51,123 nt of DNA from Actinomycetes bacterium (GTDB lineage: Bacteria > Actinomycetota > CALGFH01). The translations under genes and the position numbers were made by a program. The notes below the pieces were generated by a model. That model worked only from the letters and a program-made list of their open reading frames with translations, searched no databases and had not been told where the DNA came from. The DNA lies in contig DASYUT010000265.1 of assembly GCA_036000965.1 (NCBI GenBank), forward strand, positions 88,555 through 139,677, in the 5' to 3' direction. Shown in pieces: positions 20,090 to 27,923 of this stretch; the stretch's first letter is position 1; the number at the start of each line of letters is the position of its first letter.

Positions 20090-20482
20090 TCAGCCGATGA
20101 TGTGGCAGACCCGCTCGGGTGGGCACTGCTGGGGGTCCAGGCTGCGGGCGCGCTGGGCGAGCTGGTCGAGCTCGCCGCGGAGCTGCTGGAGCTGGGCGAT
20201 GCGGGCGCCAAGCTCGGCGGCGCGCTGCTGGAGCAGCGTGGCGACGTGGCCGCAGGGGGCGGTGCCTTGGTCGCGGAAGGCGATGATCTGGCGGATCTCG
20301 CCCAGCGTGAGCCCGAGCGCCTGGGCGGCGCGCACGAACCCCAGCCTGCTCAGTACGGCCTGGTCGTAGGCACGGTAGCCCGATGAGGTCCGGGCCGGCG
20401 GGGCCAGGATGCCGATCTGCTCGTAGTAGCGGATCGCCTTGGTCGAGATCCCCGCCTGTTCGGCGAGCTCACCGATGCGCAT
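20090..20482 (-). CDS. MerR-family metal-responsive regulator
   Basis: 130 residues. Winged HTH MRIGELAEQAGISTKAIRYY then EQIGILAPPARTSSGYRAY, a long coiled-coil dimer helix, and cysteines in APCGHV and a C-terminal PQQCPPERVCH, as in heavy-metal MerR proteins. It diverges from the merB-type gene, and the intervening DNA has a dyad inside a 20-bp promoter spacer, the standard MerR control layout. ATG at 20,482 matches the family start; a longer frame upstream is ignored. Likely senses organomercury or a thiophilic metal. Confidence 0.9.
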   Translation of the reverse strand: MRIGELAEQAGISTKAIRYYEQIGILAPPARTSSGYRAYDQAVLSRLGFVRAAQALGLTLGEIRQIIAFRDQGTAPCGHVATLLQQRAAELGARIAQLQQLRGELDQLAQRARSLDPQQCPPERVCHIIG

Positions 20483-20515
20483 CGCCACCTCCCGAGTCGT
20501 TCTGGACCGCATCCC

Positions 20516-20547: not shown

Positions 20548-20585
20548 GCCCTCAGTGACATTGAGTGCCGCACGCGGAGTCGTCC

Positions 20586-21326
20586 ATGACCGCCAACCGT
20601 CCCCCTCGGCTCACCTGGCCGTGGCCGCGGGCCCGGCGTAGGCCCATCCGGGGCCTGCTCGTCGGCAGCGTCCAGGACCGCCAGGCCGGCCTGCGCGAGC
20701 CGCTGCAGGAGTTCCACCGTCGCCTGCTTGGCTGGTTCCTGGCCCACGCCGGCCCACCTGGGCCCGCTGCGGTTGCCGACATGGCCGCCGAGCTAGGCCT
20801 GGACCCCCGCGAGGGGCTGGGGGCGTTGGCCGCCGCCGACGTGGTTCACACCGACCCGGCCAGCGGCACGATCATCGTGGCCTACCCGTTCTCGGGGCGG
20901 CCCACCCCGCACCAGGTGGCGCTGGACGGAGGCCCGACCGTGGCTGCGATGTGCGCGCTGGATGCCCTGGGCATCCCCCAGATGACCCGCCGCGACGCAC
21001 GGATCAGCTCCGCCGACCCCACCGGCGGCCAGCCGATCACCATCGAGGTCCGTGGCGGGGCTTGGCGCTTCGAGCCGGCGACCACGGTGGTGCTGGTCGC
21101 CACCGCCGCGGGGGGCGTCTGCGGGGCGGTGGCCGACTGCTGCTGCCCGCACATCAACTTCCACGCCGACCCCCAGCAGGCCGAGGCCTATCTGCAGGCG
21201 CACCCGGGGATGACCGGGCAGCTGCTGGGCCAGCCAGAAGCCGTGGAGACGGCCAGGGGCATCTTCGGCGGCCTGCTGGACCCGCAGCAGCGCCAGGCCA
21301 CAGGCGTCAACGACACCACGAGGTGA
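20586..21326 (+). CDS. merB: Organomercurial lyase family protein (MerB-like)
   Basis: 246 residues. Conserved MerB features: AYPFSGRPTPHQVALDGG, then AMCALDALGIP, which keeps the catalytic Cys and Asp spaced CxxD (C96/D99 in R831b MerB), and DCCCPHINFHADPQQAEAYL with the third catalytic cysteine (C159). MerB breaks the carbon-mercury bond by protonolysis, releasing Hg(II). ATG 20,586 has GGAG seven bases upstream; the GTG at 20,565 lacks a ribosome site. It is the first gene of the MerR-controlled group. No merA reductase is in the window, so Hg(II) disposal must be elsewhere or the target differs. Confidence 0.85.
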   Translation: MTANRPPRLTWPWPRARRRPIRGLLVGSVQDRQAGLREPLQEFHRRLLGWFLAHAGPPGPAAVADMAAELGLDPREGLGALAAADVVHTDPASGTIIVAYPFSGRPTPHQVALDGGPTVAAMCALDALGIPQMTRRDARISSADPTGGQPITIEVRGGAWRFEPATTVVLVATAAGGVCGAVADCCCPHINFHADPQQAEAYLQAHPGMTGQLLGQPEAVETARGIFGGLLDPQQRQATGVNDTTR

Positions 21327-21329
21327 ACC

Positions 21330-21791
21330 ATGGCAGCAACCGACCTCTATCAGCAGCCGGCAGCCCGGCAGCGCAGCATCGGACCGCTGGGCACCGCAGC
21401 GCGATTGGTCGTGGGGCTGGGGCTGCTAGGCAGCGTGACCTGGGGCCACCTGGCCCGAGGGTTCCACCCCTGGTCGTGGGCGCTGGGGCTGGTGGGCTTC
21501 CCGGCGCTGCTGGTTTGCCTGGCAGTGGCTGCGCGCCCGGCGCACCCCCACCCGGCTGGAGGCCACCGGCCCGGTCGGCCACCTGCTCAACCTGGCCGTG
21601 TTCCTGGCCTTGTATCTGTGGGAGCCCACCAGCGACGCCACGCTGGTGTTCTACGGGGCCTCGATGCTGCTGGCGGCGCTGCGCGGCTACGGTGGCTGCG
21701 AGGTGCTGGCCGCCTCGAACTGGCTGCTGGGCCGTGACGACCAGGTGGCTGTGCGCTGTTCTGGCCCGTCGACCGCCTGGAGCATCGGTGA
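21330..21791 (+). pseudogene. Small membrane protein after merB, two frameshifts
   Basis: Frame 1: MAATDLYQQPAARQRSIGPL, ARLVVGLGLLGSVTWGHLAR and LVGFPALLVCLAVAAR (two membrane segments). Frame 2 from about 21,537: RTPTRLEATGPVGHLLNLAV, FLALYLWEPTSDATLVFYGA and GGCEVLAASNWLLGRDDQV. Frame 3 from about 21,744: GCALFWPVDRLEHR then TGA at 21,789. Joined, about 153 residues with four membrane segments and a conserved-looking GGCE. Breaks are one extra C and one lost G. Three bases after merB, so same operon. Function unknown; a mercury-group transporter is possible but not shown. Confidence 0.7.
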
Positions 21792-21807
21792 GCCCGGGAG
21801 GTTGGTG

Positions 21808-22197
21808 ATGACGACGACAAGGCAGGAGGGGCGCCGTCCGCTGATCGAGGTGCTCTACGTGCATGACTGCCCGCATTACCAAGGAGCGCTGGGGCTGGTG
21901 GAGCGGGTCCGCACGGAGCTTGGCATCGACGCCGAGCTGCGCACCAGCCTGATCGGCGACCAAGCGGCCGCCGAGCGCGCGCGGTTTCCGGGCTCCCCGA
22001 CGATCCGGGTCGACGACCGCGACGTCGAGCCCGGCAACCCTGCATCCCGCACTTCCTCGCTGGCGTGCCGGCTGTACCGCCACGAGCATGGCCTTGCCGG
22101 CCAGCCCGCCGAACGCTGGATCCGCGACGCCTTGCTGGCGGCGGCCGGCCGCACCGATGCCACGTCGGCCCCACAGCCGCGCTCCACAACCGACTAA
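21808..22197 (+). CDS. Thioredoxin-fold 'DF family (seleno)protein'-like small protein
   Basis: 129 residues. LIEVLYVHDCPHYQGALGLV, a thioredoxin-like first strand with a Cys at the usual Cys/Sec position, then RFPGSPTIRVDDRDVEPG, which is diagnostic of the small group annotated as DF family (seleno)proteins. Here the site is Cys, not UGA. ATG at 21,808 has GGGAGG upstream. It follows the membrane protein in the merB operon, where a thiol protein handling mercury or reducing a partner makes sense. Exact role unknown. Confidence 0.7.
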   Translation: MTTTRQEGRRPLIEVLYVHDCPHYQGALGLVERVRTELGIDAELRTSLIGDQAAAERARFPGSPTIRVDDRDVEPGNPASRTSSLACRLYRHEHGLAGQPAERWIRDALLAAAGRTDATSAPQPRSTTD

Positions 22198-24080: not shown

Positions 24081-24584
24081 TCAGGGCCCGACGGGGAGGG
24101 CGGCCTCGACGAAGATCCGGCGGTACATGGGCTCGTAGCCGTCCTCGATCCAGATGCTGCCGAATGCCTCGGCGACGGGAACCAGGCGTCGACGGGCCAT
24201 CTCGAACCGCGGCTGCCACGGGTCGGGGCGGACCTCCGCCCGCCACTGCGCCCGGACCAGCACCAGACCCGCCTGCAGTCCCCGCATGCACACGCCGCGA
24301 CTGAACCCCAGAAGCCGACAGTCGGTCACCGTGGCGCAGGCCTCCTCGCGGACCTCGCGCCGCAGGGTGTCGGCCCAGTCCTCGCCCGGCTCCGGCCGGC
24401 CGCCGGGCAGACCCCAGCGGTTCCCATCGGCACTGACCAGCACCACGGAGTCCCCGGCGACACAGACAGCGGCCGAGCCATGCCAGGTGCCTGGTGGAGC
24501 TTCGGGCGGCGGGTGCCACGCCACCCGCCAGTTCTGCCCGTCGCTGGCGACCACCCACGCGACCGCATTCTCCGCGAGATTCAT
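24081..24584 (-). CDS. Nudix hydrolase
   Basis: 167 residues from ATG 24,584 (a GTG at 24,599, just after the selenoprotein-candidate stop, is an alternative). Nudix box GGRPEPGEDWADTLRREVRE continuing EACATV. N-terminal part WRVAWHPPPEAPPGTWHGSA and VLVSADGNRWGLPGG. It is the last gene of the Clp-N operon, within 20 bp of the upstream gene. Substrate unknown. Confidence 0.85.
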   Translation of the reverse strand: MNLAENAVAWVVASDGQNWRVAWHPPPEAPPGTWHGSAAVCVAGDSVVLVSADGNRWGLPGGRPEPGEDWADTLRREVREEACATVTDCRLLGFSRGVCMRGLQAGLVLVRAQWRAEVRPDPWQPRFEMARRRLVPVAEAFGSIWIEDGYEPMYRRIFVEAALPVGP

Positions 24585-24600
24585 GACCCCAGGCTGCACC

Positions 24601-25218
24601 TCAGCCCAGCAGCGGGGTGAGGTCGCGCGCCAGCCGCTCGCTCTCGCCGATCACCGTCGCACCGGAGCTCGCCGGCCGCGGCGGCGCCTGGTCCCAGACC
24701 GCGTCGGGGCCAAACAGCAGGAAGAAGTCGTAGTCCAGCCCCTCGAATTCCACACCGAACCGCTCCAGGAAGGGCCGGCCGATCACGTTGCCGGCATCCC
24801 ACAGGTGCGTCACCCGCGGGTCGATCATGCCAGCACCGTCGATCTCCGAACGGGCGTCGGTGGGCCACCGCGCCACCCACACCACATACACTCGCAGCCT
24901 GCCGTCGGGGTAGCGCGCCAGGACGTTCTCGGCGGCCCACCTGGCGCCCGCAAGGCACGTCCCTCAGGTGGGCGCCAGCGCCAGCACCAGCCGCGGCGCC
25001 CCCTTGTCGTCGTTGAAGCGCTGCTGGAGCTCCTCGAGACTGCCCAGGTCGGCCACTGCCAGCCCGGCCGGGCGGGTCGCGCCCGGCTCCAGGGTCACCG
25101 TCGGCGGCGTCTTCCCAGACGGGCCCGTATCAGGTCTCGCCCAGGTGATGAACGCAGCGAGCAGCCCGAATGCGCCCAGGCAGGCGGCCACAAACCAGAG
25201 CCGGCCGCGCCGGCTCAT
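24601..25218 (-). CDS. Thioredoxin-like candidate selenoprotein with in-frame UGA at a UxxC motif
   Basis: ATG 25,218 to TGA 24,601, 205 codons, with one in-frame TGA at 24,964-24,966. Before it: signal/anchor LWFVAACLGAFGLLAAFITW, then GAPRLVLALAPT. After it, same frame: GTCLAGARWAAENVLARY, VYVVWVARWPTDARSEIDG, DPRVTHLWDAGNVIGRPFLE. Related thioredoxin-like proteins have CxxC where this reads UGA-G-T-C. An 8-bp-stem hairpin starts 17 bases after UGA. The first half would be a pointless 84-residue stub and the second half has no ribosome site at a suitable start. Alternative: nonsense mutation (TGC/TGT to TGA). No selABCD is seen here. ATG overlaps the Clp-N stop (ATGA). Confidence 0.6.
24915..24947 (-). 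promoter_or_regulatory. Candidate bacterial SECIS hairpin
   Basis: On the minus strand GCGCCAGG (24,947-24,940) pairs perfectly with CCTGGCGC (24,922-24,915). It starts 17 bases after the in-frame UGA, with the apical loop beginning at +25 and a G at its second base, which fits the spacing known for bacterial SECIS elements. Short GC-rich hairpins are common in this genome, so this is supporting evidence only. Confidence 0.4.
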
Positions 25219-25892
25219 GACCCGGCCTCGCGCAGCTTGGCCTCGGCGGCGCGGCGCAGGTCCTCGAGGTCCACGCCGAGCGCCCCCAGCAGCGGCCCGG
25301 CTGCCCCCTGGTAGCCGTCGGGCAGCCCCACGTGCGCGGTGATGCGCCGGTGCCGCCGCGACACCCGCTCCCTGCCGGAAGGCTCGCGCGCATCCAGGAG
25401 CACCCCTAGCAGCACGTGCTCAGGGCGGACCGCATCATGCCCGAGGGTGCTGGCGTGCTGGCTGGCCAGGTGCAGGGCGCGCTTGGCCAGCACCGGCGGG
25501 CCGCACAGTGGCGTCCACACCACCCGCCCGCCCCGCCAGCCGCGGCGGCGGGTCACCCGCCAGGTCGCCTCCCCCACCGCTGTGGAGCCGAAGGCCTGCT
25601 CGGTGGTCCGCCGGATCTCCTCCAGGTCGATGCCGAGCGTGCCGAGCAGCTCCCGGTCACCCGGCTGGGGCGCGGGCACCAGCCCCAGGCGTGCCAGGGC
25701 GAGCAGTTCGTCACGCGCTGCCTGCAACTGGATCCCATGGGCCCGCAGGAGCCGGGCGGCCCCGCTGGCACCCTCGCGCAGGATCCCCAGCAGGACGTGC
25801 TCGGGGCCGAGATAGCGGTGGCCCAGCCCCTCGGCCTCCTCCCGGCCCAGATCCAGGACCAGGTACGCCGGCTCGGTGAACCGCTCGAACAC
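25215..25892 (-). CDS. Stand-alone Clp N-terminal domain protein (copy 2)
   Basis: 225 residues from GTG 25,892, with GGGGAGG upstream. Two Clp-N repeats: GLGHRYLGPEHVLLGILREG with GAARLLRAHGIQLQAARDEL, and TLGHDAVRPEHVLLGVLLDA. No AAA+ ATPase modules follow, so it could act as an adaptor or substrate-binding partner of ClpC or stand alone. It starts 5 bp after the stop of the paralogue at 25,898 and its stop overlaps the thioredoxin-like gene start, so all three are translationally linked. The pair probably arose by tandem duplication. Confidence 0.85.
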   Translation of the reverse strand: MFERFTEPAYLVLDLGREEAEGLGHRYLGPEHVLLGILREGASGAARLLRAHGIQLQAARDELLALARLGLVPAPQPGDRELLGTLGIDLEEIRRTTEQAFGSTAVGEATWRVTRRRGWRGGRVVWTPLCGPPVLAKRALHLASQHASTLGHDAVRPEHVLLGVLLDAREPSGRERVSRRHRRITAHVGLPDGYQGAAGPLLGALGVDLEDLRRAAEAKLREAGS

Positions 25893-25897
25893 GCCAA

Positions 25898-26590
25898 CTA
25901 CCTCCCCGATAGCCTCTGGTGGGCGGCGCCGCCAAGGGCCGCCAGGACCGCATCGCGGAGCCCATCGGGGTCGGCGCCCAGCACGTCCAGCAGCGGCCCC
26001 GCCGCGCTCCGGTAGCCCTCCGGCAGCCCAACCGAGGCGTGCAGCCGCCGCACCCACGGGTTGGACATGCACCGCGGCGGCCGCGTGGTGAGGTCCTCCA
26101 GCACGCCCAGCAGCAGCAGCTCCGAGCCGACATAGCGGTGCCCGAGCTTCTTGGCCCGCTCCCGAGCCAGCGTCAGGGCCTGCACGGCCAGCACCGGCGG
26201 GTCCTGCAGGGGCGTGCGCGCCACCCGGCCGACCCCCCGCCGCCGCGCGCGGGTCGCCTCCCGGATCGCCCACCCCAGCGCCTGCGCTCCGAAGGCCCGC
26301 TCGGTAGTACGGCGGAGCGCCTCCAGGTCGATCCCCAAGCCGCCCAGCAGCTCGGCGTCGCTGGGCCGCGGGCCGGGCACCACCCCCTGCTCGGCCAGCC
26401 GACCCAGCGCAGCGCGGGCCGCCTCCAGATCCACGCCCTGGGTTCGCAGGATCCTCGCGGCCCCACTGCCGTCCTCCCGCAGCATCCCCAGCAGCAGATG
26501 CTCCGGGCCGACATAGCGGTGCCCGAAGCGGCTGGCCTCCTCCCCAGCCAGCTCCACGACCTGGCGGACATACGCGCTGCGCCCGATCAC
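25898..26590 (-). CDS. Stand-alone Clp N-terminal domain protein (copy 1)
   Basis: 230 residues from GTG 26,590, with GGGAGG upstream. Clp-N repeats: RFGHRYVGPEHLLLGMLRED with GAARILRTQGVDLEAARAAL, and KLGHRYVGSELLLLGVLEDL. Same layout as the following gene, including DAELLGGLGIDLEALRRTTE versus DRELLGTLGIDLEEIRRTTE, so they are paralogues. No ATPase domain. It is now the first intact gene of the operon, 67 bp downstream of the IS3-type element, which is transcribed in the same direction and may drive it. Confidence 0.85.
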   Translation of the reverse strand: MIGRSAYVRQVVELAGEEASRFGHRYVGPEHLLLGMLREDGSGAARILRTQGVDLEAARAALGRLAEQGVVPGPRPSDAELLGGLGIDLEALRRTTERAFGAQALGWAIREATRARRRGVGRVARTPLQDPPVLAVQALTLARERAKKLGHRYVGSELLLLGVLEDLTTRPPRCMSNPWVRRLHASVGLPEGYRSAAGPLLDVLGADPDGLRDAVLAALGGAAHQRLSGR

Positions 26591-26695: not shown

Positions 26696-27581
26696 TTATG
26701 CGACCTCCTTGGGCTCTTGATGCTCACGGTAGTAGATGGCTTCGTGTTCTGCAGGCGGGATGTCGCCGATCGCGCCGTGGAGCCGGCGCTGGTTCCACCA
26801 CTCGACCCACGCCAGGGTGGCCAGCTCGACCTGCTCGGCGGTCCGCCACGGGCCACGACGGCCGATCAGCTCCGCCTTGTACAGCCCGTTGATTGCCTCC
26901 GCCAAGGCGTTGTCGTAGCTGTCGCCGCGGGAGCCAACCGAGGCCACCGCGCCTTCCTCGGCCAGCCGCTCGGTGTAGCGGATCGACAGGTACTCCCACC
27001 CCGCAGTCGGAGTGGTGCACCAGCCCGTCGAGGTCGCCCTGGCGGGCCCAGACGGCCATCTCCAGCGCGTCCAAGGCCAGCTCGGCCCGCAGCGAGGCCG
27101 ACACCCGCCAGCCCACGATCATCCGCGAGCACGCGTCGATGACCAACGCCACGTAGGCGACCCCCGCCCAGGTGGCCACATCGGTGCGGTCGGCGACCCA
27201 CAGGCGGTTGGGGGCCGGCGCGCTGAAGTCCCGCTCGACCAGGTCGGCCGGGCGCTGGTCGGCCTGGTCGGGGGTGGTGGTGCGCCGCGGCTTGCCGCGC
27301 ACCACCCCACAGATGCCCAGCTCACCCATGAGCCGGGCGACCCGGTCACGGCCCACGGCGATGCCTTCGCGGCCGAGCTGCCGCCAGACCTTGCGGGCCC
27401 CGTAGACCTCGAAGTTGGCCTTGTAGACCCTGGCGATCTCGACCTTGAGCTCGGCATCGCGGAGCGCTCGGGCCGACGGCGGCCGGCTGCTGGCGGCGTC
27501 GGAGGTGGAGGGGGCGACCTGCAGCACCCGGCAGATCGGCTCGACCCCCCAGCGGTCTCGGTGCGTGGCGATGAAGCTCAC
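26696..27581 (-). pseudogene. IS3 transposase OrfB (DDE integrase), one frameshift
   Basis: Start GTG 27,581 overlaps the OrfA stop. MSFIATHRDRWGVEPICRVL, YGARKVWRQLGREGIAVGRD, then the catalytic core: first Asp in VADRTDVATW/LVIDACSRMIVGW, second Asp in LVHHSDCG, and after a frame change near 26,998 the Glu region SRGDSYDNALAEAINGLYK, ending EHQEPKEVA. The break is one extra G in the run before TGGGAGTAC. All three DDE residues remain. Confidence 0.85.
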
Positions 27582-27923
27582 GACCTCGGCGGTCGCGGGC
27601 CTGGCTCCCGCGCGAAGAAACTGGCGGCTGCCTTGAGGATCTCGCCTGCGCGGCGCAGCTCACGGTTGTCCCGCTCCAGCTCGGCGATGCGCCGACGCTC
27701 CTCAGTCGTGATGCCCGGGCGGCGGGCACCGTCGACCTCGGCCTGCGCGACCCAGGAGCGCAGCGACTCGGTGCCGACCCCGAGCTGGCGCGCCACCCCG
27801 AGTGATCACCCCGAACCGCTCGCCGGTCTGCTCGATCGCCTCCTGGACCATGCGGACGGCCCGCTCACGCAGCTCAGGCGGGTACCGCTTCTGGGATGGG
27901 TGGGTGCTCCGGTTGTCTGCCAT
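27578..27923 (-). pseudogene. IS3 OrfA (HTH), one frameshift
   Basis: Start ATG 27,923: MADNRSTHPSQKRYPPELRE, RAVRMVQEAIEQTGERFGVI; after a frame change near 27,800, VARQLGVGTESLRSWVAQAE and the leucine-zipper-like EERRRIAELERDNRELRRAG. One extra G in a G run causes the break. Typical IS3 OrfA length once joined (about 114 residues). Confidence 0.85.

Follow-up and report, generated by a model that had tools for sequence, protein, structure and literature searches.

Two open reading frames of 84 and ~120 codons lie in the same phase on the minus strand of the window (the whole 51,123-nucleotide stretch of DNA analyzed) and are parted only by a TGA. This arrangement, which was the starting point of the original prediction, is confirmed for positions 25218–24601, with a start ATG at 25218–25216 and a terminating TGA at 24603–24601. 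The joined 205-residue protein has a hydrophobic N-terminus, followed by a linker and a domain containing LALAPT-U-GTC-LAGARW, and the TGA indeed occupies the first position of the expected U-G-T-C. A genetic code in which TGA specifies tryptophan was ruled out: the gene terminates with TGA, and the tryptophan codons are TGG.

The start codon overlaps the stop of the upstream Clp_N gene in an ATGA (25215–25218), suggesting translational coupling, and the two Clp_N proteins previously described as part of the operon are real according to Pfam. Clp_N neighbors were found only in the lineage of this genome (the window and contigs C24 and C140), and they were set aside as a lineage-specific context. 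At a distance of 2.4–4.9 kb from the selenoprotein gene, and mostly on the opposite strand, are genes for a regulator of the MerR family and a homologue of MerB (both ~4 kb away) and for a DF family protein (Table 1). The MerB homologue scores 69 of 193 bits with the NCBIfam MerB model, far below the cut-off, and is a divergent lyase. Beside it, a small membrane protein (21330–22197) seems to change frame ahead of the DF domain (from 21330–21737 to a frame starting at 21598), through either a frameshift or a sequencing error. Directly upstream of the Clp_N-selenoprotein operon is an IS3-family transposase in two frames (26724–27796), a region that also contains a predicted ALIL pseudoknot (RF01497, 27510–27626). 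The Clp_N-selenoprotein region may be mobile.

Table 1 Features of the selenoprotein gene and its surroundings in the window.
Feature	Position	Strand	Basis and remarks
MerR-family metalloregulator of the nearby mercury cluster	20090..20512	-	Pfam MerR, MerR-DNA-bind
Organomercurial lyase MerB homologue	20565..21326	+	Pfam PF03243, 110 bits
DF family (seleno)protein domain, Cys form (YVHDCPHYQ)	21844..22131	+	NCBIfam NF049942, 100 bits (cut-off 70)
NUDIX protein, directly downstream	24081..24599	-	Pfam PF00293
Selenoprotein gene	24601..25218	-	205 aa with UGA85 taken as Sec; predicted thioredoxin-like (TlpA/ResA-like) domain behind a signal anchor
bSECIS-like hairpin GGCGCC-AGGUG-GGCCGCC	24931..24948	-	Loop 21 nt after the UGA; family comparison
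TGC, Cys88, putative partner of Sec85 in UxxC	24955..24957	-	Invariant in the family alignment
In-frame TGA, codon 85, interpreted as selenocysteine	24964..24966	-	First position of UxxC
Predicted transmembrane signal-anchor helix, residues 3–27	25138..25212	-	AlphaFold2 secondary structure; hydrophobic sequence WFVAACLGAFGLLAAFITW
Clp_N protein, directly upstream	25215..25880	-	PF02861, residues 145–193 of ORF 25215–26273; start uncertain
Second Clp_N protein	25898..26590	-	Pfam PF02861

Taken alone, a TGA-split frame is weak evidence for selenocysteine (Sec), because such pairs are common in GC-rich DNA of this kind. The window contains 81 TGA-split frame pairs of similar size, and ~20% of random 120-codon frames at its composition are free of stops. 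These frequencies would also fit a locus that does not encode a selenoprotein at all, whether a stop-split pseudogene, the product of a sequencing error, or a chance open frame beyond a normal stop, and decayed copies of the family do exist (C140, by deletion, and G167, by frameshift). The case for Sec therefore rests on comparison between relatives.

Since single-sequence scans of genome contigs, plasmids and viral contigs gave no relatives, alignment-based searches were needed. Three more complete or almost complete copies are present in the same genome, and each is interrupted by one internal TGA at the corresponding position (C24, UGEC; C164, UPEC; C280, UTEC; 43–69% identical by search). 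With a profile of the own-genome copies, intact relatives were detected in six further genomes of a 397-genome phylum sample, along with a broken copy and a truncated copy in two more, and eight loci were detected in a species-wide collection. The latter carry the labels Ktedonobacteraceae, Chloroflexia, Anaerolineae, Chloroflexi, Thermomicrobiales, Rubrobacter, Propionibacteriales and Krumholzibacteriota, and the one labelled Rubrobacter is identical in sequence to G309 of the phylum sample. A class-level search was limited to three genomes, and a separate class search centered on G037 yielded no carriers beyond the three already known.

Homologues had been named as a check on whether Cys occurs at the TGA position. 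In the 17-member alignment, 16 sequences (four copies from this genome and 12 relatives from several phyla) have TGA and one, from Propionibacteriales, has TGC (Cys), so that Sec is apparently the usual form among the aligned members. The family signature is SPTUxxCxxGA...DPRVxHLWD, in which P-T-U-x-x-C and several F, R, W and D positions are invariant. Downstream of the TGA, dN/dS between the window copy and its nearest paralogue is ~0.33 (0.167/0.512), strong evidence at the codon level that selection against amino-acid change persists past the TGA. Two copies are not intact. In the remnant on C140 (L033:8334–8486), the anchor is joined directly to the last 32 residues and the Sec region is gone, with Clp_N sequence again alongside. 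In G167 (contig C2; L065:8121–8560), the frame is broken right after SPTUSEC, reflecting either decay or mis-sequencing; this copy sits within a mer-type cluster (MerR, DF).

An 8-bp stem starting 17 bases downstream of the TGA had been proposed. A stem is present, but its details differ: the hairpin consists of 6 bp plus one bulge around the loop AGGUG (-9.3 kcal/mol), with the loop at 21 nt, and the C24 stem likewise has one bulge. The folding energy of the region departs only modestly from expectation (z = -1.8), which is weak evidence, and the claim of a stem thus rests on comparison. The Sec copies share a GC-rich block just past the TGA that forms a stem of 5–6 bp, and in 15 of the 16 this conserved stem places the start of the loop 21–22 nt after the UGA; the exception, L052, has retained the loop sequence, but its stem is weaker. 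According to the bSECIS rule, the loop has a G followed by U or G (PMC13188914), and the loop of the Sec copies always reads N-G-[U/G]. In most members, one base pair of the stem joins the third positions of a Gly and a Val codon, and these synonymous positions covary (C-G 10, U-A 3, G-C 1), with a score reached by 3 of 500 shuffles. When the stem is slid, pairing drops from 94% to at most 55%. The loop Ser codon is AGT in all ten copies that have it, a codon used for 1–17% of Ser in the same loci, and where the loop residue is Arg or Gly instead, the codon is still NG[T/G]. The Cys (TGC) relative has no SECIS-like block. The covariation signal comes mainly from a single base pair, and the aligned sequences are related, meaning that counts of conservation and covariation are not independent events. 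Within these limits, the element sought downstream of the TGA was found, bSECIS-like and conserved with covariation.

The genome encodes selB (275 bits), selA (482 bits) and selD (378 bits), all above curated cut-offs, with selA and selB adjacent on contig C118. No tRNA-Sec was found on C118, and an Rfam search of the genome for tRNA-Sec yielded nothing but Ser, Gly and Arg tRNAs that scored under the cut-off. A pattern search recovered the 3' half of a tRNA-Sec on contig C121, with anticodon TCA and a long variable arm; an intact copy was not found in this fragmented assembly. Thus, of the machinery on which the original prediction was said to depend, selA, selB and selD are present and selC is represented by this half only. 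A genome of the same family (G001) contains an intact tRNA-Sec (78.6 bits) that is 82% identical over the C121 half, and we infer that the absent 5' half reflects an assembly gap or a displaced fragment. On C121 (L035:827–898) the 3' half is attached to an unrelated 5' part and lies beside sequence resembling an IS3-type transposase, an arrangement that may have been left by an insertion or created by a join during assembly. In the phylum sample, selA is present in all nine carrier genomes versus 229 of 397 genomes overall (p ~0.007).

An identical TGA in 16 copies across phyla, purifying selection downstream, a conserved SECIS-like stem and the presence of Sec machinery all stand against a pseudogene, a sequencing error or a chance frame. 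By these comparisons such a reading is already contradicted, and we regard it as barely tenable, while the selenoprotein reading of the interrupted gene is supported.

To describe the encoded protein, a structure was predicted with AlphaFold2 from the 17 sequences (pLDDT 87). The model has an N-terminal helix (residues 3–27) and a thioredoxin fold, in agreement with the single thioredoxin-like domain behind a signal anchor inferred earlier, and U85 immediately precedes helix 86–100, the first helix of the domain. Fold matches in the PDB include ResA, CcmG/DsbE, secreted mycobacterial disulfide oxidoreductases and GPx (TM ~0.5–0.65 by target length), and GPx4 and tryparedoxin peroxidases are also among them. 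None of the 17 members has an informative Pfam or NCBIfam match at E ≤ 0.1 or an informative PDB sequence match, and models for SaoT, GOS_C, redoxin (PF08534), Thioredoxin_3 (PF13192) and other selenoprotein families were unmatched by all 17 at the same threshold. The predicted fold is TlpA/ResA-like, and on the model the protein qualifies as a thioredoxin-fold oxidoreductase. The GPx4 and tryparedoxin peroxidase matches, and the fact that Sec is typical of such enzymes, could point to a Sec-dependent peroxidase of the GPx or peroxiredoxin type that counters oxidative stress, including stress caused by mercury. However, a UxxC motif whose Cys, three residues after the Sec, is invariant is characteristic of thiol-disulfide oxidoreductases, and no Pfam or NCBIfam sequence match to peroxidase families was obtained, making a peroxidase improbable. 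By eye, some relatives have lipoprotein-like starts (LTAC, ISSAC), and both anchor and signal are missing from L054 and L055; protein location therefore varies within the family.

Mercury-related genes recur around the relatives. MerR and MerB are found 1.3–3 kb from the C24 copy, and ArsR and a DF protein immediately precede the C280 gene. The G037 locus contains, in a row, MerB, ArsR, MerA, the selenoprotein and a CcdA-like protein; G363 has a MerB-like match, ArsR, CcdA, the selenoprotein and DF; and G309 has CcdA, the selenoprotein and DF. In L054, which also has a MerB-like match, the selenoprotein is fused in frame to the start of MerA (GGTCVNVGCIPSK; TIGR02053, 110 bits over 101 positions, where the contig ends). 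L058 contains MerR, DF and a MerT-HMA-selenoprotein fusion. Linkage or fusion to mer genes thus applies to the window, C24, G037, G363, L054 and L058, and not to every locus: no mer gene was found in the stretch seen for C164, L051, L055, L061, L063 and L064. MerB occurs in 2.4% of bacterial genomes in one survey (PMC8261052), which makes the repeated proximity unlikely to be due to chance, although no formal test was computed. The DF protein beside this family is in the Cys form at every locus examined. Judged across these neighborhoods, the telling context is the mercury-resistance genes and not Clp_N.

A CcdA-like neighbor or fusion occurs in ~11 loci, and at some loci that lack a mer gene only CcdA is present, leaving room for a general redox function. 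The protein would then be a Sec-containing TlpA/ResA/CcmG-like thiol-disulfide reductase, fed by CcdA and acting on extracytoplasmic disulfides in general, with a mercury link that is secondary and due to co-transfer or co-regulation. CcdA/DsbD-like partners are indeed the commonest context, the structural matches are to ResA, DsbE and CcmG, and several loci lack a mer gene. This remains the main rival, but we consider it unlikely in view of the fusions to MerA (anchorless in L054) and to MerT-HMA, and of the recurrence of MerB, MerR and DF neighbors in distant lineages. Our preferred reading, to which we assign a probability of roughly 0.7, is that the locus encodes a Sec-x-x-Cys thioredoxin-like selenoprotein of an apparently undescribed family that works most likely in mercury detoxification, as a selenol/thiol oxidoreductase for which Hg binding is inferred rather than demonstrated. 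Comparison of sequences supports the Sec coding, the family, the SECIS-like element and the context; decoding in the cell, Hg binding, the electron source and the direction of transfer are inferred, and there are no biochemical data.

For this mercury-detoxification selenoprotein, UGA85 would be decoded as Sec by SelB and tRNA-Sec through the hairpin 21 nt downstream, giving a 205-residue product that is anchored in the membrane by its N-terminus and carries its Sec-x-x-Cys active site in a TlpA/ResA-like thioredoxin domain. In most members, the protein is expected to act outside the cytoplasmic membrane, where the Sec85 selenol, with Cys88, may engage Hg(II) or organomercury or may reduce Hg-damaged thiols. 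It could then be recharged by electrons from the cytoplasm through a CcdA/DsbD-like membrane carrier, or could hand mercury to Mer proteins. Direct mercury transfer is suggested by the fusions to MerA and MerT-HMA, which would put the selenoprotein domain in the place usually taken by NmerA or MerP. A more specific and only tentative proposal, which we would not yet favor, is a Sec-based Hg(II) relay in which a thioredoxin-fold Sec-xx-Cys domain replaces NmerA/MerP and passes Hg to MerA/MerT, while CcdA resets the oxidized form. If true, it would constitute a mercury-resistance architecture dependent on selenium.

Several known systems resemble this family in part. TlpA/ResA/CcmG oxidoreductases share the thioredoxin fold with a membrane anchor, a CxxC-type site at the first domain helix and a CcdA partner, and selenoproteins have been reported in that group (a UxxC thiol-disulfide isomerase-like protein, a redoxin and a UGC TlpA). 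In contrast, this family lacks an informative Pfam or NCBIfam match and has its own signature and mercury-gene linkage. The Sao system also encodes a thioredoxin-like UxxC selenoprotein with a MerB-like lyase; however, the SaoT model (NF040730) is unmatched, the window MerB reaches only 48 bits with SaoL (cut-off 140), and other Sao components were not identified. NmerA and MerP, HMA domains that deliver Hg(II) to MerA and MerT, correspond in placement, N-terminal to MerA in L054 and behind MerT-HMA in L058, but theirs is an HMA fold with CxxC whereas this family has a thioredoxin fold with Sec-xx-Cys, for which Hg transfer has not been shown. The DF family (NF049942; PMC12013277) is likewise a small thioredoxin-like protein of mercury clusters, found beside this family and known in a Sec form, but the selenoprotein family described here is separate.

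The 119 prokaryotic selenoprotein (sub)families in a 2026 review include several linked to mercury, such as MerT-like, SaoL, SaoT, HgcA/B and a metal-binding putative mercuric reductase (PMC13188914). Those among them with Pfam or NCBIfam models gave no match to the 17 members. We found no description of the family in the open-access literature, and a prior description elsewhere cannot be excluded. It appears to be a new selenoprotein family, one that is easy to miss, given that deep-Sep may fail to identify selenoproteins without Cys homologues (PMC12013277).

The mer neighbors and fusions suggest that mercury handling includes a selenium-based step that has not been described. As a matter of general chemistry, mercury is bound more tightly by selenium than by sulphur. 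A selenol encoded in mer operons or fused to mercuric reductase would naturally use this selenium-mercury chemistry and, in uncultured bacteria, would tie mercury resistance to selenium supply in a way that can be tested. As for annotation, several mer-associated genes are currently split into two meaningless pieces. In two Chloroflexota-labelled loci (L056:5018–7249 and L052), the selenoprotein continues into a C-terminal domain that, by eye, has the look of a secreted, ScyD-like beta-propeller.
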